This document shows positions 1,873-35,301 of a DNA stretch of 37,886 bases, in pieces. The notes below the pieces were generated by a model. That model was not told the DNA's origin. It searched no databases and saw only the letters and a list, made by a program, of their open reading frames with translations. Location of the stretch: positions 1 through 37,886 of the IMG/VR virus record IMGVR_UViG_3300036820_000049; one strand, 5' to 3'. Source of the stretch: a virus. The number at the start of each line of letters is the position of its first letter. Position 1 is the first letter of the stretch. A program made the position numbers and the translations under genes.

Positions 1873-3971
1873 CCCACCGGCGCCGCGGCGCCGTACGCGG
1901 CCGGCGTAATATTGATGCGAGTGCCCGGATGCGCGGCACCAGCCGTTCCCAGGATGTACTGCAAAATGCGATTAGCATTGCCGCGATCGCTGTCTTTGGG
2001 CAGTACGAAGCTGACGTGCTCGATGTGCACGTGGGCGGCGTGGCCACCCCTCGCCCAGGTCGGCGGACCGATCTTGGTGTGAGGATCACGCCACCCCGGA
2101 GATTCACCAGCCGGAATCGGCGCCATTGCTTGCAGAAAAAACACGACGGCGTTGAGCTTCCCGGCGAGAATCCCTAAAGCGTTCCCGAACAACGTCAACG
2201 GGCTCAGGATCCCGCCGAGGACGCCCTCGATGCCGGTCATGCGCCCGGCGAAGGTTGTCATCCAGATCGCAAGCCGCTGACCAAACGGTCCCAGCTTGCC
2301 GAGCATCGAGGTGACCGGGAGCAACAGGCTCTTCGTCAGCCAGAACGACACAGCCGTGCCGGCGCTGATGATGAGTGGACCGAAGCCTCCGGTGGCAAAG
2401 TCCCACGCACCGCGCAGAAAGCGGCTGAAGCCGCCTTCCTTTTCGGCTGCCGCAACTGCTGCGCCGCCGCCCTTACCGCCGCCGACTAAGAGTAGTCCAT
2501 CATCGGCGAGGATCTGACGCGTCACGCGGTCGACCGCCGAACCGAAACGCAACGTGGCTGCTGCCAGGCCCAGCATGCCCGTCACGAACTTGATTCCGGC
2601 AAGCGTCGTCACCGCGGCAACGATTCCGCCGATATCCCTCTCGATGTCCTTGTTATTATGCAGGGCCACCTGGATCCGGTGCGCGCCGTCAGCAACCGCG
2701 ATGAAGAAGTTGGTCGCGTTCTTGAGCCAGGGCGTACCCAGTTCGGCGAAGATCGACTGCACGTTGGTCTTCGCTCGCTGGAAGCCGCCCCAGAAGTTGC
2801 CCATGTACGTCGACTGCGCTTGCGCGGTGTTCTGCGTTCGACCAAGCTGGTGGATCATGTTGAGCAACTGCTCGACGCCACCAGGAGTCGCTAAAAAGCC
2901 GAAGCGCGCACCCTGAATCTTAAACGCCGAGAGTAGATCGTTGATGAACTCTGCACGCTTCGCCGTTAAGGCGCTACCTTCGAGACCCTTCGTCTGGTCG
3001 GCCAGCGCCTTATTGATCTGCCGGAGCTCGCCGAACAGATCGAAGGTCGTCGCCCCCTTCCGATCGGTCCGGTAGAAGTTGTTTTGGCCGCGCGAATCGA
3101 CAATCCCAAGACGCTGCAACGCTTGGAGATGGCCGGTCTGCGCGTGCTTCGTCTGCTCCAGCGCGTTCATCGACTGAATGACGAAGTCTTGGAGAGCCGT
3201 GCCGCCCTTGCCGCGGCCGAGACCCATGCGATCGAGGAACGCCCCCACGATGAGGGACTGATCTTCGGGGACGCCCATTCGCCGGAACAGGGGCGTGTAG
3301 TAGCCGGCCTGCGTCAAGTACCGGTTTAAGTTGTCCGGCATCATGAACGAAAGTTTCGTCACCGTATCGAGAATCGGTTTGATGGCCTGCGGGGTGTACG
3401 CTTGGTACAAATGCGCCAGCTGGATGCCCTGGCGCGTCGCATCCTCAAACGATACCTGGCCGCCGGACTTCAAAAACTGAACGTCAGCAAACTGCGCGAC
3501 GGTCTTCACAAAATCCGGATTCAGCTGCTTGATTTGATTGATTCCGGACGAGGCCATCACGCCAATGATCTGCGCCGACTGCACGACGCTCTGTGCGGTG
3601 ATGTTCGAGACGTCGTATGCGAGCTGTCGAATGCGGCCCATCTGCGTCCCGTTGGCGCCGGTGGCAATCTGCACGGTAGTCAGCGCGCGCTGAAGATCTG
3701 CCGCCTGGGCAATCGAGTACGCGATCGACGCGCTGCCGGCCAGAGCAAACCCGCCGGCCATCATCGTGGTGTTGCGCAGCTGCGCAAGCCGTATTTCTTC
3801 GATGCGCCGGGTATAGCGGGCCATCGCGGCCGCGTTGGCATCGATCAGCCCCTGCTGTCGCAGGAGTTGTTCATTTGCAGCGCGGGTACTCGATGCAAGC
3901 CGCGCCATGGTAATGGCACCGTTCGACTCGAACCGCATGAAGATCCCGATCGCCCAATCGCCGAAGCCCAT
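1869..3971 (-). CDS. Tail tape measure protein
   Basis: A 700-residue protein that would set tail length and fill the tube. The N-terminus (about residues 20-75) is helical with IEEIRLAQLRN repeats, followed by an Ala-rich segment and the region GINQIKQLNPDFVKTV...FADV typical of the conserved PhageMin_Tail/TP901 core. Hydrophobic Gly/Ala stretches (about 455-480, 535-560 and 590-625) are potential membrane-inserting segments, common in tape measures. The C-terminus (GHAAHVHIEHVSF) is polar. It starts one nucleotide after the stop of the tail-completion gene. At 700 residues it implies a rather short tail compared with T4-like phages. Confidence 0.88.
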   Translation of the reverse strand: MGFGDWAIGIFMRFESNGAITMARLASSTRAANEQLLRQQGLIDANAAAMARYTRRIEEIRLAQLRNTTMMAGGFALAGSASIAYSIAQAADLQRALTTVQIATGANGTQMGRIRQLAYDVSNITAQSVVQSAQIIGVMASSGINQIKQLNPDFVKTVAQFADVQFLKSGGQVSFEDATRQGIQLAHLYQAYTPQAIKPILDTVTKLSFMMPDNLNRYLTQAGYYTPLFRRMGVPEDQSLIVGAFLDRMGLGRGKGGTALQDFVIQSMNALEQTKHAQTGHLQALQRLGIVDSRGQNNFYRTDRKGATTFDLFGELRQINKALADQTKGLEGSALTAKRAEFINDLLSAFKIQGARFGFLATPGGVEQLLNMIHQLGRTQNTAQAQSTYMGNFWGGFQRAKTNVQSIFAELGTPWLKNATNFFIAVADGAHRIQVALHNNKDIERDIGGIVAAVTTLAGIKFVTGMLGLAAATLRFGSAVDRVTRQILADDGLLLVGGGKGGGAAVAAAEKEGGFSRFLRGAWDFATGGFGPLIISAGTAVSFWLTKSLLLPVTSMLGKLGPFGQRLAIWMTTFAGRMTGIEGVLGGILSPLTLFGNALGILAGKLNAVVFFLQAMAPIPAGESPGWRDPHTKIGPPTWARGGHAAHVHIEHVSFVLPKDSDRGNANRILQYILGTAGAAHPGTRINITPAAYGAAAPVG

Positions 3972-3972
3972 C

Positions 3973-4464
3973 TTACTCCTCTGCTATGCGCGCGAAGGGC
4001 GTTACGCCGAACATTGCTCCGATCGACTCTTCGGAGAGCTTCAGCACCTCGGGGATCGACTCCATCATGCCTTCCTTGAGGACCGGGCGTGGCGGAACGA
4101 CTTTGTTGGGAATCATCGAGTTCGGCGCCGTGACGTACCCGTGCTCGTGATACGCCACGATCGGCTCGGCGCTACCGACGCCGGCTAACCCGCCCTCACT
4201 ATGCGACTCGATTGAATCGCGCAGGAGCGAACCGTCAATAAGTAACGGGCCACCAGCGCCGCCGTCGGAACGAAGTTGTGCGGTGCTATCTTGCGAAATG
4301 GGCGCCAGCGGAGGAGACTCGCCGTAGAGCCTTTTGACGTTCTTCTCAACGAGTTTCGCGGCCGCCGCAGCGGTCACGTCGATCATCATGCCGGAGCGCA
4401 GAGCGCTCGCCTCCAGGAAATCGGCAAACTCACCGAGTCCATCAAAGAACTTGGCAATCGACAT
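3973..4464 (-). CDS. Tail completion / virion morphogenesis-like protein
   Basis: A 163-residue protein beginning MSIAKFFDGLGEFADF. A helical N-terminus leads to GPLLIDGSLLRDSIES, AEPIVAYHEHGY and VVPPRPVLKEGM. This pattern of a DSI segment, a position where the chain returns with HEHG, and then PPRP is that of phage virion-morphogenesis/tail-completion proteins (PF05069-like, Mu gpG/P2 gpS type). AAGGAG lies upstream, inside the end of the frameshifted chaperone frame, which stops 3 nt before this ATG. Placement between tail chaperone and tape measure is slightly unusual but within the tail cluster. Confidence 0.65.
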   Translation of the reverse strand: MSIAKFFDGLGEFADFLEASALRSGMMIDVTAAAAAKLVEKNVKRLYGESPPLAPISQDSTAQLRSDGGAGGPLLIDGSLLRDSIESHSEGGLAGVGSAEPIVAYHEHGYVTAPNSMIPNKVVPPRPVLKEGMMESIPEVLKLSEESIGAMFGVTPFARIAEE

Positions 4465-4467
4465 CGC

Positions 4468-4946
4468 CTAGCTCTCCTTTTTAGCCGAGTTTTCCGCGAT
4501 CTCCTGATTCATTTCGCTAAAGACCTCAGACCACCAGATTAGGTCGCTAACGGTACACTGCTGGACGAGCCATCCGGGGACTCCGACGATGCAGGCTCCG
4601 GCAATGGCGCGCCCGAGGTCACGGCGGAAATCACTGCCTCCAGATATTTTTTTTGGTTGTCATCCAACATCGACAAGCGCAGCTGCGCGATACCGATAAG
4701 CTGGATGTCGTCATCGCTCAGCTGACTCGCGAGTGTGTTGAAGTCGGCCCTCGAACGGCACGGAAACTGCGCGACGCCGTCCAGCTCGCCAATGGCGCAC
4801 ACGGCGCCGGCCATATTAAGCAATGCCTTCGAGGGCGTTTCACCGCAGTAGGACACCGCCTGCATCGACTCGAGAGCCGTTAGGCGACGGAGAATGACGG
4901 TGTGGCCGCTCGTTAAGGCGACCGACACTTTCTCGGTTTGATTCAT
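4468..4946 (-). CDS. Tail assembly chaperone, -1 frameshift (G-GT type) product
   Basis: Inferred 159-residue product of a -1 ribosomal shift on the A8 run read from 4654 to 4647. Residues 1-100 are those of the short chaperone up to the Lys-Lys codons AAA AAA. After the shift, 59 residues follow in the new frame (starting ISGGSDFRRD and ending SAKKES) up to a TAG three nucleotides before the next gene. The new-frame segment CTVSDLIWWSEVF has normal protein composition and fills the otherwise unexplained gap at 4465-4538. Paired products of this kind are made by tail chaperone genes of many contractile and long-tailed phages, with the tape measure as client. Confidence 0.75.
4539..4946 (-). 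CDS. Tail assembly chaperone, short (G) form
   Basis: A 135-residue protein read without frameshifting. The ATG at 4946 shares one nucleotide with the TAA of the tail tube gene. It starts MNQTEKVSVALTSGHTVIL, a short beta-hairpin opening, followed by a helical body (LTALESMQAVSYCGE; DFNTLASQLSDDDIQLIG) and a Ser/Pro-rich tail. This fits the small helical chaperones encoded between tube and tape measure genes. Codons 99-100 sit on an A AAA AAA heptamer, where a fraction of ribosomes should slip to make the longer form. An earlier in-frame ATG at 4973 would overlap the tube gene and is less likely. Confidence 0.72.
   Translation of the reverse strand: MNQTEKVSVALTSGHTVILRRLTALESMQAVSYCGETPSKALLNMAGAVCAIGELDGVAQFPCRSRADFNTLASQLSDDDIQLIGIAQLRLSMLDDNQKKYLEAVISAVTSGAPLPEPASSESPDGSSSSVPLAT
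4647..4654 (-). other. Slippery A8 run for programmed -1 frameshift
   Basis: On the minus strand the codons read CAA AAA AAA TAT, so the heptamer A AAA AAA is exactly in the X XXY YYZ register needed for tandem -1 slippage. After the shift the next codon is ATA, and the new frame stays open for 59 codons. Eight identical bases in a row stand out in this GC-rich sequence. I did not identify a definite downstream pseudoknot. Confidence 0.75.
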
Positions 4947-5416
4947 TAAGAGATTTGAACCCTCTGGGAGCAAGTGAAGTTCACAGACGGCTTAACCGCT
5001 GAGTCACGCATCCACGTACCCGGATGGTAGCCGTGAAAGCGGAGGTTTTGATACTGCCATGCCTGATTCGGGCTCACGCCATCGACCGACGGCTCGTACG
5101 AAGTAATGGTGAACGCCGTGTCGGCAAGCCCCGCATAGAAGGCCGCGTCTAACAGCCCGACGACCGCAGCAAAGTTACCGTTTTGGCGGGTCATTTCGAG
5201 CGAGCCCGTGATCGTGCCCGGGATTCGGACAAGATCGATCACCCCACCGTTGTCGCAAGGTGCGTCTTCGAGCACCTTGTCATTATATTGCGATTCGAAC
5301 TTCTCGCGCCGACCATCCAGAAGCACGGTCAACGGTGCAATCTGAGGGTTTTGGCACGTAATAACGAGCGTCTGTTGCGTGCCGGTATTAAACTGACCCG
5401 GTGCTCCGAAGCCCAT
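4946..5416 (-). CDS. Tail tube protein
   Basis: A 156-residue protein directly downstream of the sheath gene, where contractile-tail phages encode their tube. It is beta-rich with few helices: TLVITCQNPQIAPLTVLLDG, then VIDLVRIPGTITGSLEMTR, AFTITSYEPSV and a terminal FTCSQRVQIS strand. The segment around TITGSLEMTRQNG resembles the GSI/GTLEL strand that lines the inner tube in tube/Hcp-fold proteins. Length matches the usual 140-180 residues. A terminator-like hairpin separates it from the sheath gene, suggesting the tube and later genes may also have their own promoter or be read through. Confidence 0.72.
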   Translation of the reverse strand: MGFGAPGQFNTGTQQTLVITCQNPQIAPLTVLLDGRREKFESQYNDKVLEDAPCDNGGVIDLVRIPGTITGSLEMTRQNGNFAAVVGLLDAAFYAGLADTAFTITSYEPSVDGVSPNQAWQYQNLRFHGYHPGTWMRDSAVKPSVNFTCSQRVQIS

Positions 5417-15529: not shown

Positions 15530-17899
15530 TTAGCGGCCCATTGTCCAGCCCGCCCATGTCAGCTTCATGCCAGCCTCGAGCCGGCGCTCCGTAAAAACCA
15601 TGTAGCCCCACGCATCACTATTGCTAACGAGCACACCGTTAGCGAAGAACTCGTGGTCTTCTGCAACAGTCAGGTCGAAAACGTCAGCGTTCGCGCCATG
15701 CACTACTTCGACCACACGAACGACCGCAACACTTGGTCGGGAGATACCGGTTGACGGAGAACGCCGCGCCACAGTAGGCGCAGGTGCGCGTTTCATTGTC
15801 AACGCCAGAGGCTGCGCGCGCTGCGCTCTTACACTTACGGCTACAGTATTTAACGTCTGGTCGGTGGTTTTTAGTAACAAAGCGCTTTCCGCATTGCTCG
15901 CAGCACCGTTCGAGGTCCGTGCGCGCAGCCCATGACCGCTTGCCATGATCTCGGTGCCATTGGATTCCCTCAGGACTCGCGTGCCAAGCTTTGGCAAGCT
16001 CTCTGATGCGATCCATGTGGCCATTGCTGACGCAGACTCTGCCCCACGCGCTACGCACTTCGTAATGTTCAGCGAAGTGTTCTGGGGCAGGCAGACATTC
16101 AAGATTGAGGAGCGCGTTGTTTGCCGGATCTCCGTCAATATGGTGGACATGCCAGCCGGCAGGGATTTCCCCATTAGCTGATTCCCAGACATCCCGATGG
16201 AGATAGTGCGTTTTTGGGGGCGTCCCCCAACGCGCTCTCCAGTAGCGGCCCGATGGAGCCCGCGAATAGCTTCGGCCGGCGAATATAATGGAATACGCGT
16301 TTCTAGTTTCAGGCACTGCTCACCGGGCAACAGGTCAGCGGCAGCAACAAACTCCCCTCGATCGGCCGAGTAAATTGGGTGCGTATCAGTAGCGTCGAGA
16401 ACCGCTCCATTCGAAAAGGTAACGCGGACCGTCGCGGCGTCGCGCCTGGTAAGGAGGCTCGCCGTTACCGTCCGTAAGCCGGTCCGCGTCCATACTCTCT
16501 GGCCAACCCTTATACGTTCGATCGGAGTAAGCCCAGCTTCACTCGAAATAAGCGTTCCGCGGGCAAGACACATGTGCGTTAATCTCGCAGCGGCCGCAGG
16601 ATTAGTCTTCTTCTCGATCTGATTCGTGCCAGGCTTGAACTGCACCGCCAGCCAGTCGTTCACCAGCACCGGGCACCGTTCCATATCGACCAGCGTTCCG
16701 AAGCCGGCGCCAGTACGAAACTGCGCGTTGACCTCGTTGATACGATCGCCCTCAGACGGATTCGCCTCAGGCACGCAAAACTTCACCGGAATCTTCCGTC
16801 GCAGCAGCTCCGAACGAATGAACTTCCAGTTCGTCCGAACCGAGCTTTGCGCCGAGATGAGCTGGGAACGCCCGCCGGCTGTCGCGTCGCCGTAGATCGT
16901 GACGCCCCATCGCTTCGCGTGATCTTCGTACCGTCGCAGAAACTCCGGAACGACGTCCTCAACGCCAGCATCTGGCATGGCGATCTCGTCGATCGCATAG
17001 AAGATGCGTCGCTGCCAATCCGGGACCGGTAGCGATTGCTGTGGCTGCGGATGGCCTCGGTAATCGACGATCGGCTGCTGCACGTACGCCTGCGCGATTA
17101 CCGAGCACTGGAAGCCGACATTGAAATCGAAACTCCAGAGCAGTGGCGCCTGCCGTAGTCCGATCGGCGGCAGGCCGCTGACCGCAACCCCATGGATATC
17201 CTGGTCAAAAAAGCGGTAGACGCTACCACCAGTCGTTGACCAATGCCCATCAAGGTGAACCGCCCACAGCTCCGGCGGCAGCAGCTTCTCCTGCAGGGCG
17301 ACATATTGATCGCGACCGGGCCAGAGGAAGTTGTCGCGCACCGAGAAGCGCCACCACTTCATCGCCTTCTGCTTCTCAAGCAGGTCGTAGATCCAGTGGC
17401 CCTTTTGCACCGGATTGAAACTCATCCGCATCATTGGAACGCACGCGCCGGGGCCGTACGAAGCCAAGGCTTGCGGCGAACCCGACAGACGGGACATCAC
17501 CAGGTCGAAGGTATCGCGGCCGCCATCCCACGTCTGCGGCTCCTCAAGCAGCAGCGTGTCGGCCTCAGTCGAGAGGATGCGATCCTGGATCTGCGCCGAG
17601 AGCGGCTCGAGCTGCGCGCCATTCGCCAAGCGGATGATGCCGTCGTTACTAAGGTACCGGAACTCGATGCCGTGGTCGGTCAGCAGCTGCCGCATCGTCT
17701 GCAAGAAGCCGCGCTTCAGCTGGGGTAGGTCGCCACCGGTAACGTAATGTCTGGCCCCCGGATAGAGTTCTAACCGGTCATGCATCCAGTCGGCAAACAT
17801 CCGAGATTTCCCGGCTCGCCAACCGCCGCAGACCGCAGCCATCGTGTCCTCGCACGCGAGGACCTCCGCCTGGCCCGGCGTCACCGTCGAAGTGAACAC
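15530..17899 (-). CDS. terL: Terminase large subunit interrupted by an intein
   Basis: A 789-residue precursor. The ATPase domain has Walker A at about 25-33 (GGWRAGKS), Walker B as TLLLEEPQTW and a coupling motif SFNP. The nuclease domain has Asp in WSFDFNVG and in IYGDATAGG, and the last acidic motif in SDAWGY. Between LTHM and SDAWGY lies a 317-residue intein (residues 444-760), so the spliced enzyme would be 472 residues, a normal size, with the motif HMSDAWGY restored. Without splicing the nuclease motif is broken. ATP-driven packaging and headful or site-specific cutting at the portal are its role. The start overlaps the small terminase stop by 1 nt. Frame 0 stays open for the whole length even across the embedded HNH gene. 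Confidence 0.9.
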   Translation of the reverse strand: MFTSTVTPGQAEVLACEDTMAAVCGGWRAGKSRMFADWMHDRLELYPGARHYVTGGDLPQLKRGFLQTMRQLLTDHGIEFRYLSNDGIIRLANGAQLEPLSAQIQDRILSTEADTLLLEEPQTWDGGRDTFDLVMSRLSGSPQALASYGPGACVPMMRMSFNPVQKGHWIYDLLEKQKAMKWWRFSVRDNFLWPGRDQYVALQEKLLPPELWAVHLDGHWSTTGGSVYRFFDQDIHGVAVSGLPPIGLRQAPLLWSFDFNVGFQCSVIAQAYVQQPIVDYRGHPQPQQSLPVPDWQRRIFYAIDEIAMPDAGVEDVVPEFLRRYEDHAKRWGVTIYGDATAGGRSQLISAQSSVRTNWKFIRSELLRRKIPVKFCVPEANPSEGDRINEVNAQFRTGAGFGTLVDMERCPVLVNDWLAVQFKPGTNQIEKKTNPAAAARLTHMCLARGTLISSEAGLTPIERIRVGQRVWTRTGLRTVTASLLTRRDAATVRVTFSNGAVLDATDTHPIYSADRGEFVAAADLLPGEQCLKLETRIPLYSPAEAIRGLHRAATGERVGGRPQKRTISIGMSGNQLMGKSLPAGMSTILTEIRQTTRSSILNVCLPQNTSLNITKCVARGAESASAMATWIASESLPKLGTRVLRESNGTEIMASGHGLRARTSNGAASNAESALLLKTTDQTLNTVAVSVRAQRAQPLALTMKRAPAPTVARRSPSTGISRPSVAVVRVVEVVHGANADVFDLTVAEDHEFFANGVLVSNSDAWGYMVFTERRLEAGMKLTWAGWTMGR
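15620..16570 (-). other. Intein in the large terminase
   Basis: Terminase residues 444-760, 317 residues. It starts with Cys in CLARGTLISSEAGLTPIERI (block A). Block B is GAVLDATDTHPIYSADRGEF with the TxxH motif, and the N-terminal domain ends near LPGEQCLKL. Block F is ADVFDLTVAEDHEFFANGV and block G is VLVSN followed by Ser, the first residue of the C-extein. The penultimate residue is Ser where His is usual, which may slow cyclisation. Intein residues of about 90-280 are not a splicing domain: in this frame they read as a poorly folded Ser/Ala/Thr/Arg-rich stretch, because the DNA encodes an HNH nuclease in another frame. The functional splicing core is thus about 120 residues, the size of a mini-intein. 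Confidence 0.88.
15684..16316 (-). CDS. HNH homing endonuclease, nested out of frame in the intein
   Basis: A 210-residue protein. GTG start at 16316 is made from the last base of terminase codon 528 and the first two of codon 529. GGTGAG lies just before it as a possible ribosome site. Residues 17-40 (YSRAPSGRYW, THYLHRDVWE) and the motif VHHIDGDPANNALLNLECL (57-75) followed by H80 are those of the HNH_3 family. Two zinc-ribbon units follow: C139/C142/C158/C162 and C179/C182 with C196/C197/C201. It occupies exactly the place where inteins carry their homing endonuclease, between blocks B and F, but it is shifted one frame relative to them. It would be made as a free protein unless ribosomes frameshift. 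Expected target: intein-less terminase genes at the HMSDA codons. Confidence 0.82.
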   Translation of the reverse strand: MPETRNAYSIIFAGRSYSRAPSGRYWRARWGTPPKTHYLHRDVWESANGEIPAGWHVHHIDGDPANNALLNLECLPAPEHFAEHYEVRSAWGRVCVSNGHMDRIRELAKAWHASPEGIQWHRDHGKRSWAARTDLERCCEQCGKRFVTKNHRPDVKYCSRKCKSAARAASGVDNETRTCAYCGAAFSVNRYLPTKCCGRSCGRSSAWRER

Positions 17900-24578: not shown

Positions 24579-24938
24579 CTACGCTCCGTCTTCTGCACGC
24601 AGAGCGCGCTCTAGTTCCCGTTTTATAATGTCCCCATGACACAAGAGGGGGTGACAGAAGCATGCCAACTCCAGCCGCCCCGTTTGCACCACGGTCGCAG
24701 CGAGCCTCTTCATCTCCTCCAGCACATCCCTATCGCCTGCGACGTAGATTCTTTCAGTGAGCCACGCGTCATACTTGGCGATTACTTCGCCGCGATCGCC
24801 GTCGTGGCCGATGATGAAGCGATTGGCCAACGGCGATGGCCGAAGTCCCTTCCAGCGATTGCCGCGACCAATGTAGACAGCGGTGGCCTCGCGGAGGACG
24901 CTCCAATCTTGCTTGACGTTGACGACGCGTATGCTCAC
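24579..24938 (-). CDS. DUF4326 domain protein
   Basis: A 119-residue protein from GTG 24938, overlapping the stop of the helicase-methyltransferase gene (GTGA). The sequence follows the DUF4326 layout: RVVNVKQDW, AVYIGRGNRWKG, PLANRFIIGHDGDRGEVIAK, and LELACFCHPLLCHGDIIKRE. The Cys/His cluster FCHPLLCHG would fit a metal or catalytic site. The family is common in phages and its role is not settled. A longer start at 25001 would lie inside the previous gene and is unlikely. Confidence 0.8.
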   Translation of the reverse strand: MSIRVVNVKQDWSVLREATAVYIGRGNRWKGLRPSPLANRFIIGHDGDRGEVIAKYDAWLTERIYVAGDRDVLEEMKRLAATVVQTGRLELACFCHPLLCHGDIIKRELERALRAEDGA

Positions 24939-27445
24939 GCTGACTTCTCCTCCGCTGCAAAGAGTGTGGGCATCGGAATGTCGCGTTCCGCGGCTTCGCA
25001 ATAGGCCACGGCATCCGCGTGGTAATCATGAGACAACTCGACCGTGTATCCCCGGCGGCCCATTTTTATCGCGCAGTATGCGACGGTTCCAATGCCGCCG
25101 AAAGGGTCCAGGACTAGGTCGCCCGGATTTGAGTACCGCTCGATCAGCCGTTCGACGATATCGAGCTGCAGCGGGCACGTGTGCTGCATCACTCGCCGTT
25201 GCGCCTGCGCTGTGTTGAGCGTCCGCATACGAGTGACGTCGTCCCATACGAACTCGCTGTTAGAAACGGGATCTAGGGCCATGAAGCTCGCCGGCAGACT
25301 CCCATTTTGCTCCAATGCTTCAGCGATCTTGACGTGCTCTGCAAAGTCGTAAACCATCGCTCCGTTAAACTCATGCCATAGCTTACGCAGCGTGGCCATA
25401 TCGAGGGTCCGGATCTCCTCGGGACTCAGAAAGCGATCGCCCGATGACCGCCAAAATGCATGAGCATCAAACTGCCAGCGTGCTCGAGTGTAATCGGACT
25501 TGTTATGACGAACCGGGTTGTCCGCATAAGCTCGGCTGCGATCGGTAGGAAGCTTTCGGAAGAGCAAAATGTATTCGGGCATGCCGCAGCCCATCTTCGT
25601 GCCGTCCTTACATTGCTCGCTCCAGCCCAAACGGTAGGTTTGATTGTTTTCACGGACGACATCCGTGACGACGACGAGTCGGCCCATGAAGCGTAGGCCG
25701 TGGCGTTGAAGATGGGCGACGCATTTATCTGAAAAGGGATTGACGGTTGGCGTGCCGTCCCCGCTCTGCGCCCCAAATACAATTCGGTCTTTGGCGTGAA
25801 CGCAGTACATGCGACCCGGCTTGAGCGCTCGGACGAGTTCGGGCGTGAGGTAATCCATCTGCCTAAAGAATCCTACGTCGCCAGGGTTGTGCCCAAAATC
25901 ATTGTAGCTCGGCGAGTATTCGTACTGGTCGCTAAACGGCCAGCTCGTTAGGATAAGATCGACTGAGTCGCCCTGAAGCAGCTTGCCTTCTTCGACAGCG
26001 TCGTTGTGAACGGCCGTGTAGTGCTCTCCGCGGACCTCGGTACGCGACACACCCATGGTTCGCTTCATCTCCTTTCGGCGCAGCTCGGCATCTAAGCCGT
26101 ACGAACGAATGATCTCCGACATACGCTCTCGAAGCATGTTATGCTCGTTCCACTTGCGCCTAAGCTCGTCGTAGATGCGGTCCTCGCTCTCCGTGTGGAT
26201 GACGTGGATGTCAACCGGCGCGGATTGAAGGAAACGATGGATCCGGTGAATGGCCTGCATAAAGTCGTTGGCTTTATAATTAACGCCCAGAAAGATCGCG
26301 CTGGAGCAATGTCGCTGAAAGTTGCATCCGGAACCGCAGATGACCGGCTTGGCGGCAAGCAAGGAAATCTTTCCGTCTGAGAAGTCGAGAATGGCTTGCT
26401 CACGCTCGTCGAGATCCTGCGTGCCGTAAACGCTGACGGCGTTCGGAAACTCCGCTTCGATCGCTCGGCGCTCATCTTCCAAATCGTGCCAGATAATCCA
26501 ATGGCGTTCCGGGGCGCCATTGTCGATGATCGCTTTCGCCGTAGCTATGCGCGCCGGCAAACTTTCGCGCTTTTCGCGCGCCGCGTCACTCAGACTGACC
26601 GTGGCATCGCGCAGCAGCTTTCCTTGCCCCCAGGTATCGAAGCCGGCGGTTACATGGTCGGCGTCGAGACGGTGACGGTGCACCCGCAGGGGAGGGAGAT
26701 CATAGCCTTCGTCACTGTAACCCAGATCGCTAGGGCGCGTCAGGAACGCAGCCCACGTGCTCAGCCAGAGCCAAAACTCTCTTTCCATGTGCGGATAGAG
26801 CGTGAGGTTTCCAGCCTTCTCAGAGTCACGCTGGAAAAAGCGCGTCAGCGCCTGGCCGGTATCCATGACGCCGAGGAAGCCGGCGTAGTGAATCAGCTCT
26901 TTATAGCGGTTCGGTGACGGTGTGGCTGTCGCCACGTATTTGTAGGGCACCTGGCTAAAGAGCTTAAGGAACTCCTGGTACGTCTTCGAGCCGAAGCTTC
27001 GTAGAACAGACGCCTCGTCGAGCGTCACGACCTGAAAGAGGTTTGGGTTAATATCGCCATCGCGCACGCGCTCGTAGTTGGTGATCAGCACGCTCCGGCC
27101 GCCCGCTATGTGACGGGATGCCTCCGCATCTGTACGCACGTAGGGAATGTCTATGCCAAAGAAGCGCGTTGCATCGCGCTGAAACTCTTGCTTTACCCCA
27201 AGTGGGCAGATGATCAGGGCGTCACAACCGAGTCCTTCGACGAGCGCGGTCACGACCTGCAGCTGGATGATCGTCTTGCCTAATCCGAAATCCGCAAAGA
27301 TCGCCCGATTGCCACCGCGAATCGCCCACTCCGCAATAGCTGCCTGATGCCCCTTTAGGGCCGAGTTGAGACGGATCCCGCCTTGATAGCCGCGCTCGAC
27401 GTCCGTCGCGACCTTACAAGAGAGGAACGCCTGATAGTCACTCAC
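24935..27445 (-). CDS. SNF2-like helicase fused to a DNA methyltransferase
   Basis: An 836-residue protein from GTG 27445 (SDYQAFLSCKVATD). The N-terminal half is an SF2 ATPase: Walker A FGLGKT (53-58), motif II DEAS (143-146), motif III TATPSPN (173-179) and motif VI QAIHRIHR (397-404). The C-terminal half is an N6-adenine/N4-cytosine methyltransferase: the catalytic tetrapeptide is SWPF (501-504, LILTSWPFSDQYEY) instead of DPPY, and the AdoMet loop DPFGGIGT is at 780-787 near the end, so motifs are in the beta-class order IV then I. Such helicase-methylase fusions are found in phages. It probably remodels and modifies phage DNA, possibly for protection from restriction. No cognate nuclease is adjacent. 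Confidence 0.85.
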   Translation of the reverse strand: MSDYQAFLSCKVATDVERGYQGGIRLNSALKGHQAAIAEWAIRGGNRAIFADFGLGKTIIQLQVVTALVEGLGCDALIICPLGVKQEFQRDATRFFGIDIPYVRTDAEASRHIAGGRSVLITNYERVRDGDINPNLFQVVTLDEASVLRSFGSKTYQEFLKLFSQVPYKYVATATPSPNRYKELIHYAGFLGVMDTGQALTRFFQRDSEKAGNLTLYPHMEREFWLWLSTWAAFLTRPSDLGYSDEGYDLPPLRVHRHRLDADHVTAGFDTWGQGKLLRDATVSLSDAAREKRESLPARIATAKAIIDNGAPERHWIIWHDLEDERRAIEAEFPNAVSVYGTQDLDEREQAILDFSDGKISLLAAKPVICGSGCNFQRHCSSAIFLGVNYKANDFMQAIHRIHRFLQSAPVDIHVIHTESEDRIYDELRRKWNEHNMLRERMSEIIRSYGLDAELRRKEMKRTMGVSRTEVRGEHYTAVHNDAVEEGKLLQGDSVDLILTSWPFSDQYEYSPSYNDFGHNPGDVGFFRQMDYLTPELVRALKPGRMYCVHAKDRIVFGAQSGDGTPTVNPFSDKCVAHLQRHGLRFMGRLVVVTDVVRENNQTYRLGWSEQCKDGTKMGCGMPEYILLFRKLPTDRSRAYADNPVRHNKSDYTRARWQFDAHAFWRSSGDRFLSPEEIRTLDMATLRKLWHEFNGAMVYDFAEHVKIAEALEQNGSLPASFMALDPVSNSEFVWDDVTRMRTLNTAQAQRRVMQHTCPLQLDIVERLIERYSNPGDLVLDPFGGIGTVAYCAIKMGRRGYTVELSHDYHADAVAYCEAAERDIPMPTLFAAEEKSA

Positions 27446-27998: not shown

Positions 27999-28273
27999 GC
28001 AGCGTCCTCGACCAGCTCGTAGCTCGCTTCGAAAATGTCACGCCTGCACGGGTAAAACTCCCCCTTGAGTCCCTTGATAATCCAATCGCCCACGCTTGCA
28101 TAGATTGGACCTTCGAGAGTGTAGATCTCGACCTTGAGGTTGTCTACACCGTCGCTGACGCCGGTGCCGTGAACCGGTACACTGAGGAAAGAGGCTACCA
28201 CTTCCCAGGACGCTTGCGTGCCGGTCCACTGCACGGCTTCAATAACAATTGGCTTCTTTCGATATTTTTGCAT
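27995..28273 (-). CDS. Conserved small phage protein (YRKKPIVIEA type)
   Basis: A 92-residue protein. MQKYRKKPIVIEAVQWTG is the hallmark of a short protein present in a great many phages; the C-terminal GDWIIKGLKGEFYPCRRDIF is its other conserved block. The start shares one base with the TAA of the phosphoesterase gene (TAATG), so it is translationally coupled to it. No activity is known for this family; it is a good sign that the surrounding DNA is phage and not host. Confidence 0.78.
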   Translation of the reverse strand: MQKYRKKPIVIEAVQWTGTQASWEVVASFLSVPVHGTGVSDGVDNLKVEIYTLEGPIYASVGDWIIKGLKGEFYPCRRDIFEASYELVEDAA

Positions 28274-29730
28274 TAGTTGTCAGTGTCCACAGGAGTATCG
28301 TCGGCCGGATCCTGGGCTATGAAGTGCCTTCCGCTCAACGGAGCGCTAATCGGCCTAAAAACGATAGGGGTTTGGTTGAAGTCGAAAAAATCGGAGAGAT
28401 CGTCGTCGCGCGCGTCAGTCGTTCCCAATGATGGCAGGCCAAACGCCTCTTCGGAGAACTTCAGAATGCTGCCGAACTCGTGTTGAACGTGCGACACATA
28501 GCCTTGCTTCACGTAAGGCGCGACCACGAGCAGCGGAACGCGGAACCCTTGCTCGTAGGAGTTGTAGATATTAGGCGGAGGCACGTGATCGTACCAGCCG
28601 CCCCAGTCGTCCCAGACGACGAAGATCGCGGTAGAATCCCAGTATTGTGACTGTCCGATCGCATTGACGACCGAGGTAACCCACGAGGGCCCGCTGCCAT
28701 CGGTGGCGCCCGCGTGGTCGGATGCTTTCCCGCTTGGCGTAATCCATGTCACGCTGGAGAGTTTGCCGGCAGCGATGTCGCTTAGGAATTTCGACGACGG
28801 GTAAATGACGTTCGCCGCATAATCTGGCCTGTCCGACCAGATGGGCTGCAGAGCATCCACCGCATTCCAAAGTGCCGGACCAGCGTGCTCCTGATAGTAG
28901 GACCACGTGAGACCGGCCGCCTCAATCTCGGTTATCAGAGACGCACGGTTAAAGCACGGAAAGGTCGTCTGCGCCTCGCCGCCGGCTGCATCGATCTCAG
29001 CGACCGTGGAGCCGGGTGGCGAATCGCAACCGCCAACGGGCCCTTTACCGGGTCCCTTTGGGTTTTCCGATGCGCGCAGCGGTGACCCATCGGCAACCGC
29101 GGACGTTCCGCTCACGAGATACTGGTGCGCAGGGAACGACGGGCCTTGGCTTGTTTCGAACATTTCGTCGCCGAAGCTGTACGTCTCGGCTATCGTGTAG
29201 TACGGAACGACTTCGTTCGGCGGCACGTACGCGTACGCGCGTGTTTGCGCGCTGGGGCAGGCGGATTGTTTTCCGGCGCAGTTCGAACGGGCACGATCCC
29301 AGCCATCGAGCTTTCCGCCATCGTAATCAATAAGCCACGCCGAATGTTTGTGGCTCATATCGTAGGGCGCCGTCAACAGTTCGGGCTGCAACGTGATTTG
29401 CACGCCGCTCGAGTTCATCCCATGCTGCACGGTGTTTGCGCCGGGAAGTTCGTTGAAGAGGTTGTCGACCGTGCGATTCTCTTGAATCACGATGACGACG
29501 TGTTTGATGTATGGGCCCGGCGAGCCGGTGGGTGCGGTCGTTGGCGTAACCGTCGGTAACGGTGAGGGGCTTGGCGACGATACGTGACATCCGATCTCGA
29601 CGACGCATGGTTGCGACGAGGGCGAAGGCGTCGGGCTTGGGTTACCCGAGCCTCCGCCGGATCCGCATCCTGCGGCCACCGCAATGGCGATCAGAGCTGA
29701 GGGAACAAAAGCTGTGTGAACGATCTTCAT
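28273..29730 (-). CDS. Secreted lipoprotein phosphoesterase (PF04185 / phospholipase C-acid phosphatase type)
   Basis: A 485-residue protein. A lipoprotein signal (SALIAIAVAAGC, Cys22) is followed by a Ser/Pro/Thr linker to about residue 72. The catalytic domain starts HVVIVIQENRTVDNLFNELP, the metal and nucleophile region of the family, followed by SFGDEMFETSQGPSFPAHQY and VVWDDWGGWYDHVPPP near the end; Glu-Asn, His and Asp ligands are all present. It should act outside the cytoplasm on phosphate esters or phospholipids. It is fused into the operon: ATG overlaps the ASCH stop (ATGA) and its TAA overlaps the next ATG. A host-derived gene carried by the phage (auxiliary or conversion function) is the likely explanation. 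Confidence 0.88.
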   Translation of the reverse strand: MKIVHTAFVPSALIAIAVAAGCGSGGGSGNPSPTPSPSSQPCVVEIGCHVSSPSPSPLPTVTPTTAPTGSPGPYIKHVVIVIQENRTVDNLFNELPGANTVQHGMNSSGVQITLQPELLTAPYDMSHKHSAWLIDYDGGKLDGWDRARSNCAGKQSACPSAQTRAYAYVPPNEVVPYYTIAETYSFGDEMFETSQGPSFPAHQYLVSGTSAVADGSPLRASENPKGPGKGPVGGCDSPPGSTVAEIDAAGGEAQTTFPCFNRASLITEIEAAGLTWSYYQEHAGPALWNAVDALQPIWSDRPDYAANVIYPSSKFLSDIAAGKLSSVTWITPSGKASDHAGATDGSGPSWVTSVVNAIGQSQYWDSTAIFVVWDDWGGWYDHVPPPNIYNSYEQGFRVPLLVVAPYVKQGYVSHVQHEFGSILKFSEEAFGLPSLGTTDARDDDLSDFFDFNQTPIVFRPISAPLSGRHFIAQDPADDTPVDTDN

Positions 29731-31489: not shown

Positions 31490-32293
31490 CTACTCCTTTG
31501 AAATTGATGGATATTCGCGAATGCGAAGGTCATCAGGAATCATGTCGTCGGTCGGCCTGAACGCCCCGACCTGTTTGAAAAAGAACGGAATGCTCATTGC
31601 CTTGCAGTCGTCGCGAATGTCGCGCGCCCATTGCAACTCCATCGGACGATTACCTCGGCCACTTTCGCCACCGACGATAATCCAATCCATATCGCGCAAA
31701 GCGATCACAGGAAGGTGGCCCAGTAACGGTTCACACGATAGGAAGCGCACCGCAGCTGGCGTCTCACGAAGCATATCTGAACGCCAGGCGTAATCGACGC
31801 TCTCGATGGATACGCCGAGCCAGACGTTGGGATAGGGCATCGTGCCGGGAACCACAAGACGATTTACAAAGCGCCCGTCAAACGAATTGCCGAGCCATTC
31901 AAGAGCCAGAAGCATCCGTCTCGTAGTCACGTCGCGGAGGTAGCGACGCATCCGCTCGGGGCGCTTCGTTAATACCTGGAAAGTGTGCGCGCTCGACGCA
32001 CCCATCACCGCAAAAACACCGTCGATATACGAGTCGGGCACGTCCCGGTGGAACAAGTCGCTCATTGAGTTGACGAATATACGGCGAGGCTTGCGCCACG
32101 AAAGCGGCTTTGCAAGAGCCTCTGGACGCAGCGTAAGATCGAACCCCTGCTCGAAGTGGTGGCCCGGTATACCGCGCCACCGCTCGGCAAAGGTCTTTGC
32201 ATAGCAATGATCGCAGCCTGGCGAAACCTCCGTGCATCCCGTTACAGGATTCCAGGTCGCGTCAGTCCACTCGATTGTACTTCGGTCGCTCAT
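31490..32293 (-). CDS. DUF5131 (phage Gp37/Gp68) radical SAM-like protein
   Basis: A 267-residue protein. WTDATWNPVTGCTEVSPGCD followed by HCYAK gives the Cys triad C-x6-C-x2-C characteristic of the family, which is predicted to hold a 4Fe-4S cluster. FQVLTKRPERM, PNVWLGVSIE, RFLSCEPLLG and DWIIVGGESGRGNRPM are the other conserved blocks; the last resembles an AdoMet-binding strand. The reaction is unknown; a link to nucleotide modification has been proposed for such phage proteins. It overlaps the small lipoprotein gene upstream (ATGA). Confidence 0.85.
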   Translation of the reverse strand: MSDRSTIEWTDATWNPVTGCTEVSPGCDHCYAKTFAERWRGIPGHHFEQGFDLTLRPEALAKPLSWRKPRRIFVNSMSDLFHRDVPDSYIDGVFAVMGASSAHTFQVLTKRPERMRRYLRDVTTRRMLLALEWLGNSFDGRFVNRLVVPGTMPYPNVWLGVSIESVDYAWRSDMLRETPAAVRFLSCEPLLGHLPVIALRDMDWIIVGGESGRGNRPMELQWARDIRDDCKAMSIPFFFKQVGAFRPTDDMIPDDLRIREYPSISKE

Positions 32294-34269: not shown

Positions 34270-35301
34270 TTATGCAGCCCTCCCTAAGTTGCGAAACGGA
34301 GCCGGCTCGTTGAGCCGCGGTTTGTATTCCTCGATCGGTGTCGTGCGCCATACCTGGGGGCTGTTGAAGTAGCGGCGCATATCGTAAGGGGCTCTCCTGT
34401 TCGGCCAATCGTGGCGTGGTGGCGGTGGGAACTTCTCAGGATCGTGCGGATAGTTAAGCGGAATAAACACCTGGCAGAACGGCTCGCCCCCCCAAGCGAT
34501 GACCTTCCGCGCCCGCTTAAAGCATTGCTCGATAGGCTCCAGGCCGAGAAGGCAGTACACGCGTTTCTTGCGGGGAGCAACGTCTTTGAGAATCCGCATC
34601 ATCCGCTCTACGTCGTCAGTCTCTTTGGTTTCATCGAGGCCGAATCGCCACGCTCCGCGCAAGATCGGCGACCAGCGCGCAAAGCACTCCTCGTCGAACG
34701 TCTTGGGCTCGAAGCCGCTGTTGGCATCCATGAGTGGAACGCCCGTTTCCTGATAGCGGCGGATGACGAAATCCTGATACTCTATCGGCGCAGCGGAAAG
34801 GTTATTGTCGCACAGCATCTTCGCCGGATAGAAGGCGCGGTTCAGTGCAAACTCCGCACCCTCGATTAGCGTCACGGGACAAAAGCTACAACCAAGAGGA
34901 CAGCCGCGCATCGCATAGATCATGCGGTACTCGCCGGGTTGTCGGTCGAACCGCGCATCCGGGGCTCCATGCACTTTCGTTTGCTTGCCGTTCACCGTGC
35001 GCCAGATGAAGGGGACTTCCACCCCTGTCTCAGCCGTGAATCGTTCGTGGTTCTGATTGAGCGCAGGTCCGCCAACCCAAATTTCGGCGTGCTCCTTTAC
35101 GGCAGAAGCAATGTCAATCGCCCGGTCAACGTGCCATGAGAAGATAACGGAAAGGCAGACGCGATCGTAACCTAGCGCCAGCATCGCGGAATCGCTGCCC
35201 GTAGTGGAAACTTCGTCGCCCTGAGCCGCCAGGTAGTTCGCCAACTTCGACGCCCCAAGGTTATAGTGCGGGTGCGAGCAGTTGACGACGAGGGACCTCA
35301 T
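34270..35301 (-). CDS. Phage radical SAM protein with cobalamin-domain-like N-terminus
   Basis: A 343-residue protein with GGAGAAAAG before the ATG. Residues 1-85 (LGASKLANYLAAQGDEV, VCLSVIFSWHVDRAIDIASA, EIWVGGPALN) have the alternating pattern of a B12-binding Rossmann domain, but the DxHxxG motif is missing. The radical SAM triad is RGCPLGCSFC (C134, C138, C141), followed by NNLSA and a GLDETKE segment. Such proteins methylate or rearrange difficult substrates. In phages this may serve nucleotide modification. Located between small zinc-ribbon genes; a second Fe-S protein (DUF5131) is 2 kb downstream. Confidence 0.85.
   Translation of the reverse strand: MRSLVVNCSHPHYNLGASKLANYLAAQGDEVSTTGSDSAMLALGYDRVCLSVIFSWHVDRAIDIASAVKEHAEIWVGGPALNQNHERFTAETGVEVPFIWRTVNGKQTKVHGAPDARFDRQPGEYRMIYAMRGCPLGCSFCPVTLIEGAEFALNRAFYPAKMLCDNNLSAAPIEYQDFVIRRYQETGVPLMDANSGFEPKTFDEECFARWSPILRGAWRFGLDETKETDDVERMMRILKDVAPRKKRVYCLLGLEPIEQCFKRARKVIAWGGEPFCQVFIPLNYPHDPEKFPPPPRHDWPNRRAPYDMRRYFNSPQVWRTTPIEEYKPRLNEPAPFRNLGRAA

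Follow-up and report, generated by a model that had tools for sequence, protein, structure and literature searches.

A widespread intein of the phage terminase large subunit with a homing-type HNH endonuclease gene nested out of frame

Introduction

The usual description of an intein is that of a splicing domain combined with an endonuclease domain in the same reading frame. In the viral record IMGVR_UViG_3300036820_000049, of which positions 1 to 37,886 were analysed (the window), two open reading frames of the minus strand overlap with an offset of 2 nt, one of 789 aa (17899-15530) related to the terminase large subunit (TerL) and one of 210 aa (16316-15684) related to HNH endonucleases. An initial annotation, made from the sequence alone, had read them as a terminase intein with its homing endonuclease in a different frame. 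The locus raises the question of whether both frames encode real domains, and how an intein and an endonuclease come to occupy the same DNA. The evidence presented here makes it very probable that a mobile intein has inserted into the nuclease domain of TerL and that its homing endonuclease is encoded by a gene of its own, nested within the intein in another frame.

Organization of the terminase locus

Both overlapping ORFs were recovered as first described. The terL precursor (15530-17899, minus strand) is a single open frame, matches the terminase large subunit family phrog_2 with an E-value of 1e-19, and is composed of an N-extein, an intein and a C-extein. The N-extein (443 aa; 16571-17899, minus strand), with matches to phrog_2 and phrog_979, comprises the ATPase domain and most of the nuclease domain. 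The intein, located by Hint and intein profiles, junction mapping and the structure model, occupies exactly the interval that had been proposed (15620-16570, minus strand) and extends over 317 aa from Cys1 of CLARGTLI to Asn317 of VLVSN, followed by Ser at position +1. The C-extein of 29 aa (SDAWGYM...), together with the stop codon (15530-15619, minus strand), was delimited by junction alignment against intein-free relatives, and the DA of the nuclease motif is conserved in it.

The profiles Hint_2 (residues 443-486), PT-HINT (451-531) and Intein_splicing (481-760) all match in the terminase frame, with Pfam scores below the curated cut-offs, and TIGR01443 (intein C-terminus) matches residues 739-761 of that frame with a score above its own cut-off. 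Similarity to splicing domains is found on both sides of the HNH gene, with blocks A and B at one end and F and G at the other, as the initial annotation had claimed, and the objection that it might be absent outside the HNH region falls away. The nested gene (15684-16316, minus strand) encodes an HNH_3/zinc-ribbon endonuclease of 210 aa, its HNH_3 match (E = 5e-15) being above the cut-off and its HNH PHROG match having an E-value of 1e-31. It spans intein residues 85-295, and the intein frame is frame +1 of the HNH gene, which is out of frame with terL. The terL frame of the window is uninterrupted, so that the intein halves do not lie on separate ORFs as in a split intein, and the HNH is in the other frame, not in that of the splicing domain as in a bifunctional intein.

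Elsewhere in the window, a second HNH/endonuclease VII-like protein, unrelated to the nested HNH, is encoded near the contig end (36773-37771, minus strand). An SNF2-type helicase fused to an N6/N4 DNA methylase (836 aa) occupies 24935-27445 (minus strand); two same-strand ORFs overlapping this gene were examined for a second hidden HNH, and none was found in them. The minus strand also encodes a phosphoesterase family protein (28273-29730; PF04185, E = 3e-51), an uncommon phage cargo, a DUF5131 protein (31490-32293; E = 5e-91) and a B12-binding/radical-SAM-like protein (34270-35301).

Predicted folds and conserved residues

The intein was modelled with AlphaFold2 on an alignment of 57 inteins with the window sequence placed first; the alignments for structure prediction leave out three rows from named records. 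The pLDDT is about 97 at intein residues 1-92 and 278-317, which make up the Hint fold, and about 49 in between. The Hint N-part (residues 1-92; 16295-16570, minus strand) contains block A (CLARGTLI) and block B (TDTH, residues 61-64), and the Hint C-part (residues 278-317; 15620-15739, minus strand), where TIGR01443 matches, contains blocks F and G. A structure-based search, which the initial annotation had suggested as a check, was made with Foldseek. The intein model aligns along its entire length with the gp41-1 intein, the best PDB match (TMt 0.86, rmsd 2.3), and also with the Mtu RecA and Npu DnaB inteins. The catalytic set of C1, TDTH, N317 and +1 Ser is complete in the window. T61 and H64 are invariant across the 57 inteins, and TxxH is present in 83 of 86 relatives; in the relatives, the script that located the junctions partly dictated Cys1, the terminal Asn and the +1 residue. 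At the penultimate intein position, the window has Ser in place of His, a trait shared by 26 of the 86 relatives.

The model of the HNH frame has a mean pLDDT of 93.1, and its best structural match, a weak one (E = 0.016, probability 0.99), is the HNH homing endonuclease I-HmuI. The conserved residues comprise HxHHxD..NN...H and two zinc-ribbon Cys quartets (CxxC...CxxxC), that is, an HNH motif with predicted DNA-binding modules, as expected of an HNH homing endonuclease; the earlier description of a 210-residue HNH_3 protein with zinc ribbons is borne out. A relative of this frame at L002 (4249-4848), also nested, contains two successive HNH-like repeats, for which a duplication is possible.

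The part of the terminase frame lying between the two Hint parts (residues 93-277; 15740-16294, minus strand; mean pLDDT about 49) is predicted to be disordered. Its odd composition had been noticed from the window alone and extends across the family, S, T, A, P, Q, G and N making up 51% of the approximately 185 residues and acidic residues 6%, as against 15% in the exteins. Only about 26 codons, located at both ends of the HNH gene, are ordered in both frames. The pLDDT values, the fold matches and the conserved residues of the two frames indicate that the real domains are a Hint domain in one frame and an HNH domain in the other, and the in-frame middle, as modelled, looks like filler.

Distribution of the nested arrangement

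When the terminase was used as the query for related loci, only two matches were obtained, and the HNH was therefore taken as the query instead. By tblastn, the same overlap was detected in Tetrasphaera phage TJE1, MT838676, Rhodobacteraceae phage LS06-2018-MD07 and Acinetobacter phage Highwayman. Viral and genome contigs were scanned with alignments, which extended the panel to 177 loci with an HNH relative, and the intein N and C blocks were located by profiles, stop counts not being used. In 96 loci, both blocks lie in one frame, which is +1 of the HNH, with zero stops from N to C. Two further loci with both blocks at +1 have stops between them (L061 and L160, both split), and two have both blocks at +2, uninterrupted in L031 and with stops in L159. 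The HNH is in frame with the intein blocks in none of the loci having N and C blocks in one frame. At an HNH identity of 80%, the 96 loci fall into about 86 clusters; they have a GC content of 29-67% and include two cultured isolates, and the complete phage genomes of TJE1 and Highwayman show the same nesting. The HNH of the nested loci starts at a median of 272 nt into the intein and stops 70 nt short of its end, between blocks B and F, where an endonuclease domain normally resides. In L031, the intein with nested HNH_3 in frame +2 lies in a Family-A DNA polymerase gene (2116-5232, 1038 aa), and this is apparently a separate case with another host gene and another phase.

Displacement of the HNH from the terminase frame by indels of assembly or sequencing has a possible parallel in one relative, the otherwise nested L148, in which a frame break after block B in a G-rich stretch (3790-3840) is probably a 1-nt indel; L148 was for this reason also rejected as an intermediate between the nested and split forms. 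Two indels nevertheless fail to explain an offset shared by 96 loci over such a range of GC content and with isolate genomes included, so that an artefact is excluded for the family and has a negligible probability as an explanation. The out-of-frame design is not an error and is widespread, occurring in about ninety phage and prophage lineages in one fixed phase. The initial annotation had described a single locus; it belongs to a widespread family whose insertion site is the TerL nuclease motif.

Within about 50,700 phage records, the searches made found the nested form only in TJE1 (two entries), Highwayman, LS06-2018-MD07 and MT838676, which may explain why it was overlooked. The records of TJE1, Highwayman and LS06-2018-MD07 annotate one terL gene over the region and leave the nested HNH unannotated; it is missing from the annotation of HQ225832 (TJE1), OP947163 and OZ038341 (Highwayman).

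Selection on the two frames

The openness of the frames was assessed by shuffling synonymous codons within each gene in 96 nested HNH clusters having at least one intein block and an open frame. Frame +1 contains 0 stops as against 1.82 per gene on shuffling, and a fully open frame +1 would be expected in about 19 of the 96 clusters; this set being partly defined by openness, the unbiased figure is that of the 96 loci found by profiles, all of which are uninterrupted. Frame +2 of the nested clusters shows no purging (15.8 stops observed, 16.8 shuffled). Among 30 relatives that lack an intact nested intein, the mean number of stops in frame +1 is 6.7 observed and 6.4 shuffled, and none of the 30 has this frame open. 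The earlier remark that both frames are kept open is valid for the family.

Codon differences in the HNH frame between nested pairs amount to 59% at third positions, 36% at first and 31% at second positions, and the amino-acid identity of frame +1 in nested pairs is at most slightly higher than in non-nested pairs of equal HNH identity. This codon-position pattern is that of a protein-coding gene, and with the low excess of +1-frame identity it shows that the HNH is the frame under protein-level selection. The intein frame across the HNH is chiefly kept stop-free. Selection in the latter frame acts mainly on the absence of stops, and on the 26 or so codons in which Hint and HNH truly overlap.

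Expression of the nested gene

The HNH start codon is ATG in 80 of the 93 nested clusters with usable upstream sequence. A Shine-Dalgarno-like (SD-like) stretch of at least 4 nt precedes 71% of the nested HNH starts as compared to 29% of random places in the same loci, and is found in 67% of the non-nested HNH genes. The start codon in the window is GTG with GGTGAG close by, a weak and closely spaced SD, and a TGA in the HNH frame just upstream of it excludes a long upstream fusion. The enrichment of start codons and SD-like stretches and the exclusion of a long fusion point to internal initiation as the probable mode of HNH expression, although the start in the window is weak. Programmed ribosomal frameshifting, which would instead yield a TerL-IntN/HNH fusion from the one transcript that holds both overlapping frames, is highly improbable, since the HNH-frame stop lies a few nucleotides before the start codon in the window and in many relatives and leaves no upstream overlap for a fusion, and since start codons and SD-like motifs are enriched.

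Insertion site and proposed mechanism

A terminase large subunit PHROG is matched by 28 of the 29 host ORFs scanned. The junction mostly reads DNH/C-x-DA-x-RY or NDHA/C-DA-x-RY (the slash marks the junction) and falls within the RNase H-like nuclease domain, next to a conserved and probably catalytic Asp. The intein is an in-frame insert, and intein-free TerL aligns across the junction; for example, TerL of L050, which has the empty site and a free-standing HNH, is 67% identical to TerL of the nested locus L076. Two kinds of relatives had been called for earlier, of which the intein-free terL was thereby found, and an HNH in frame with the intein was found nowhere in the panel. Highwayman and BP10, considered as an isolate-level empty-site pair, were dropped on account of too great a divergence of their terminases. 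In about a dozen clusters, free-standing HNH relatives are encoded directly after intein-free terL, with the ORF opening 8-163 nt past the empty site.

These data are best read as an intein whose HNH is encoded separately, a reading supported by the profiles, the folds and the 96 loci and in agreement with that of the initial annotation. The terminase frame would be translated throughout, giving the N-extein, the Hint N-part, an unstructured filler of about 185 residues, the Hint C-part and the C-extein. We infer that the precursor undergoes protein splicing, in which the Hint domain would excise itself and rejoin the exteins, restoring the motif around the conserved and probably catalytic DA. 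An internal start in the HNH frame of the same mRNA would give the 210-aa HNH/zinc-ribbon endonuclease, and this would cut intein-free terL alleles and so lead to homing. What is observed in this regard is a patchy distribution of the element and a position near the empty site.

HNH proteins of the HK97 gp74 type are encoded beside terminases, and HNH proteins linked to packaging were reportedly described by Kala et al. in 2014, a study cited in PMC10448857. The free-standing relatives directly after terL in many phages would fit a nested HNH that acts as a packaging cofactor of this type, with the intein merely as its carrier; however, the sporadic presence of the gene, its tight linkage to the intein site and its I-HmuI-like HNH with zinc ribbons favour homing and render a packaging role unlikely.

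Split relatives and origin

At the same TerL region, 14 loci (L061, L111, L133, L107, L108, L135, L141, L156, L015, L140, L143, L096, L159 and L160) have a split intein with the HNH gene between the halves. The N-half stops shortly past block B. The C-half begins at a start codon of its own; in the eight loci checked, this codon falls within the HNH 3' end, giving an overlap of 101-137 nt. The C-half is in frame +1 with the sole exception of L159. L061 is split, yet it lies within the main nested clade. The HNH tree, which is poorly resolved and unrooted, requires at least 17 changes among the nested, free and split states, and its starred branches by themselves force 3 to 4 changes per state. 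Since similarity to nested HNHs determined the ranking of the panel, the ratio of the states in it is no measure of prevalence.

As regards the origin only, an in-frame endonuclease domain may have been shifted once by a pair of indels and then inherited, which would account for the identical phase of all nested terminase cases and for the HNH lying where an endonuclease domain usually does. This origin is rather unlikely, as the panel contains no in-frame relative, closely related genes stand free next to this very site, and the tree demands the many changes of state given above; the shared phase is also predicted by permissiveness, the 30 non-nested homologs having 6.7 stops in frame +1 versus 15.6 in frame +2. 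The free-standing and split relatives suggest instead how the nested element arose. A free HNH gene may have entered the intein in the stop-poor +1 frame, the openness of which was then selected; on the later appearance of stops, the intein would survive only by splitting, with the start of the C-half inside the HNH 3' end and in the same +1 phase. Nesting would then be the usual state of this HNH family in terminase inteins and a bridge from the free-standing to the split form, a course of events to which we assign somewhat less than even chances.

Comparison with known systems

The element resembles a canonical bifunctional intein in its Hint fold, in blocks A, B, F and G with an endonuclease between B and F, and in having been inserted into a host protein at a conserved motif of the active site; it differs in that its endonuclease is encoded in another frame as a separate product, the in-frame middle being an unstructured filler. 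Fractured genes, in which a free-standing endonuclease lies between the halves of a split intein, were reportedly described by Dassa et al. in 2009. The 14 split loci at the same TerL site likewise have the endonuclease gene between IntN and IntC, whereas the precursor of the window is one continuous polypeptide with the endonuclease gene nested inside its coding sequence. HNH homing endonucleases also occur as free-standing genes, which may engage in collaborative homing with group I introns. The free-standing relatives similarly adjoin the target site in the unoccupied gene, but the partner here is an intein, and the endonuclease gene must therefore share coding sequence with an open frame.

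Mycobacteriophage TerL inteins splice, and some have an active endonuclease (PMC5050341). The host protein is the same, but those described earlier are all in the ATPase domain (PMC5050341) and the present ones occupy the C-terminal nuclease motif. The ShiLan paper of 2025 (PMC11855218) reported HNH genes that lie concealed in another frame of actinophage methylases, without a splicing domain. A zinc-finger HNH is there too hidden in the other frame of a continuously open host gene; the ShiLan insert lacks a splicing domain and is considered to remain part of the protein, whereas the present insert has a Hint domain, as seen in the window, its host is TerL, and it occurs in about 86 clusters with both blocks and in many hosts. 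The present element is the intein counterpart of the ShiLan-type out-of-frame HNH. On overlapping frames, the ShiLan authors refer to a 2025 preprint dealing with actinophage inteins of 'non-canonical architecture' and to the 'Non-canonical inteins' of Gorbalenya (PMC11855218). A literature search for inteins with an out-of-frame endonuclease returned only the ShiLan paper and one announcement, on the same kind of element; an earlier partial description is possible, Gosselin et al. 2025 and Gorbalenya 1998 lying outside the search.

Significance

An intein with a homing endonuclease is a known kind of element; what sets the present one apart is the homing-type endonuclease encoded out of frame, in a fixed phase and in a widespread family. 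The splicing and endonuclease activities share DNA, and not protein, over about 630 nt in some ninety lineages and one phase, and the loci amount to a large natural collection of overlapping gene pairs, with constraint on sequence in one frame and mainly on openness in the other. Annotation misses the nested HNH, as the single terL listed in TJE1, Highwayman and LS06-2018-MD07 illustrates. The arrangement uncouples splicing from homing and suggests a route to natural split inteins.
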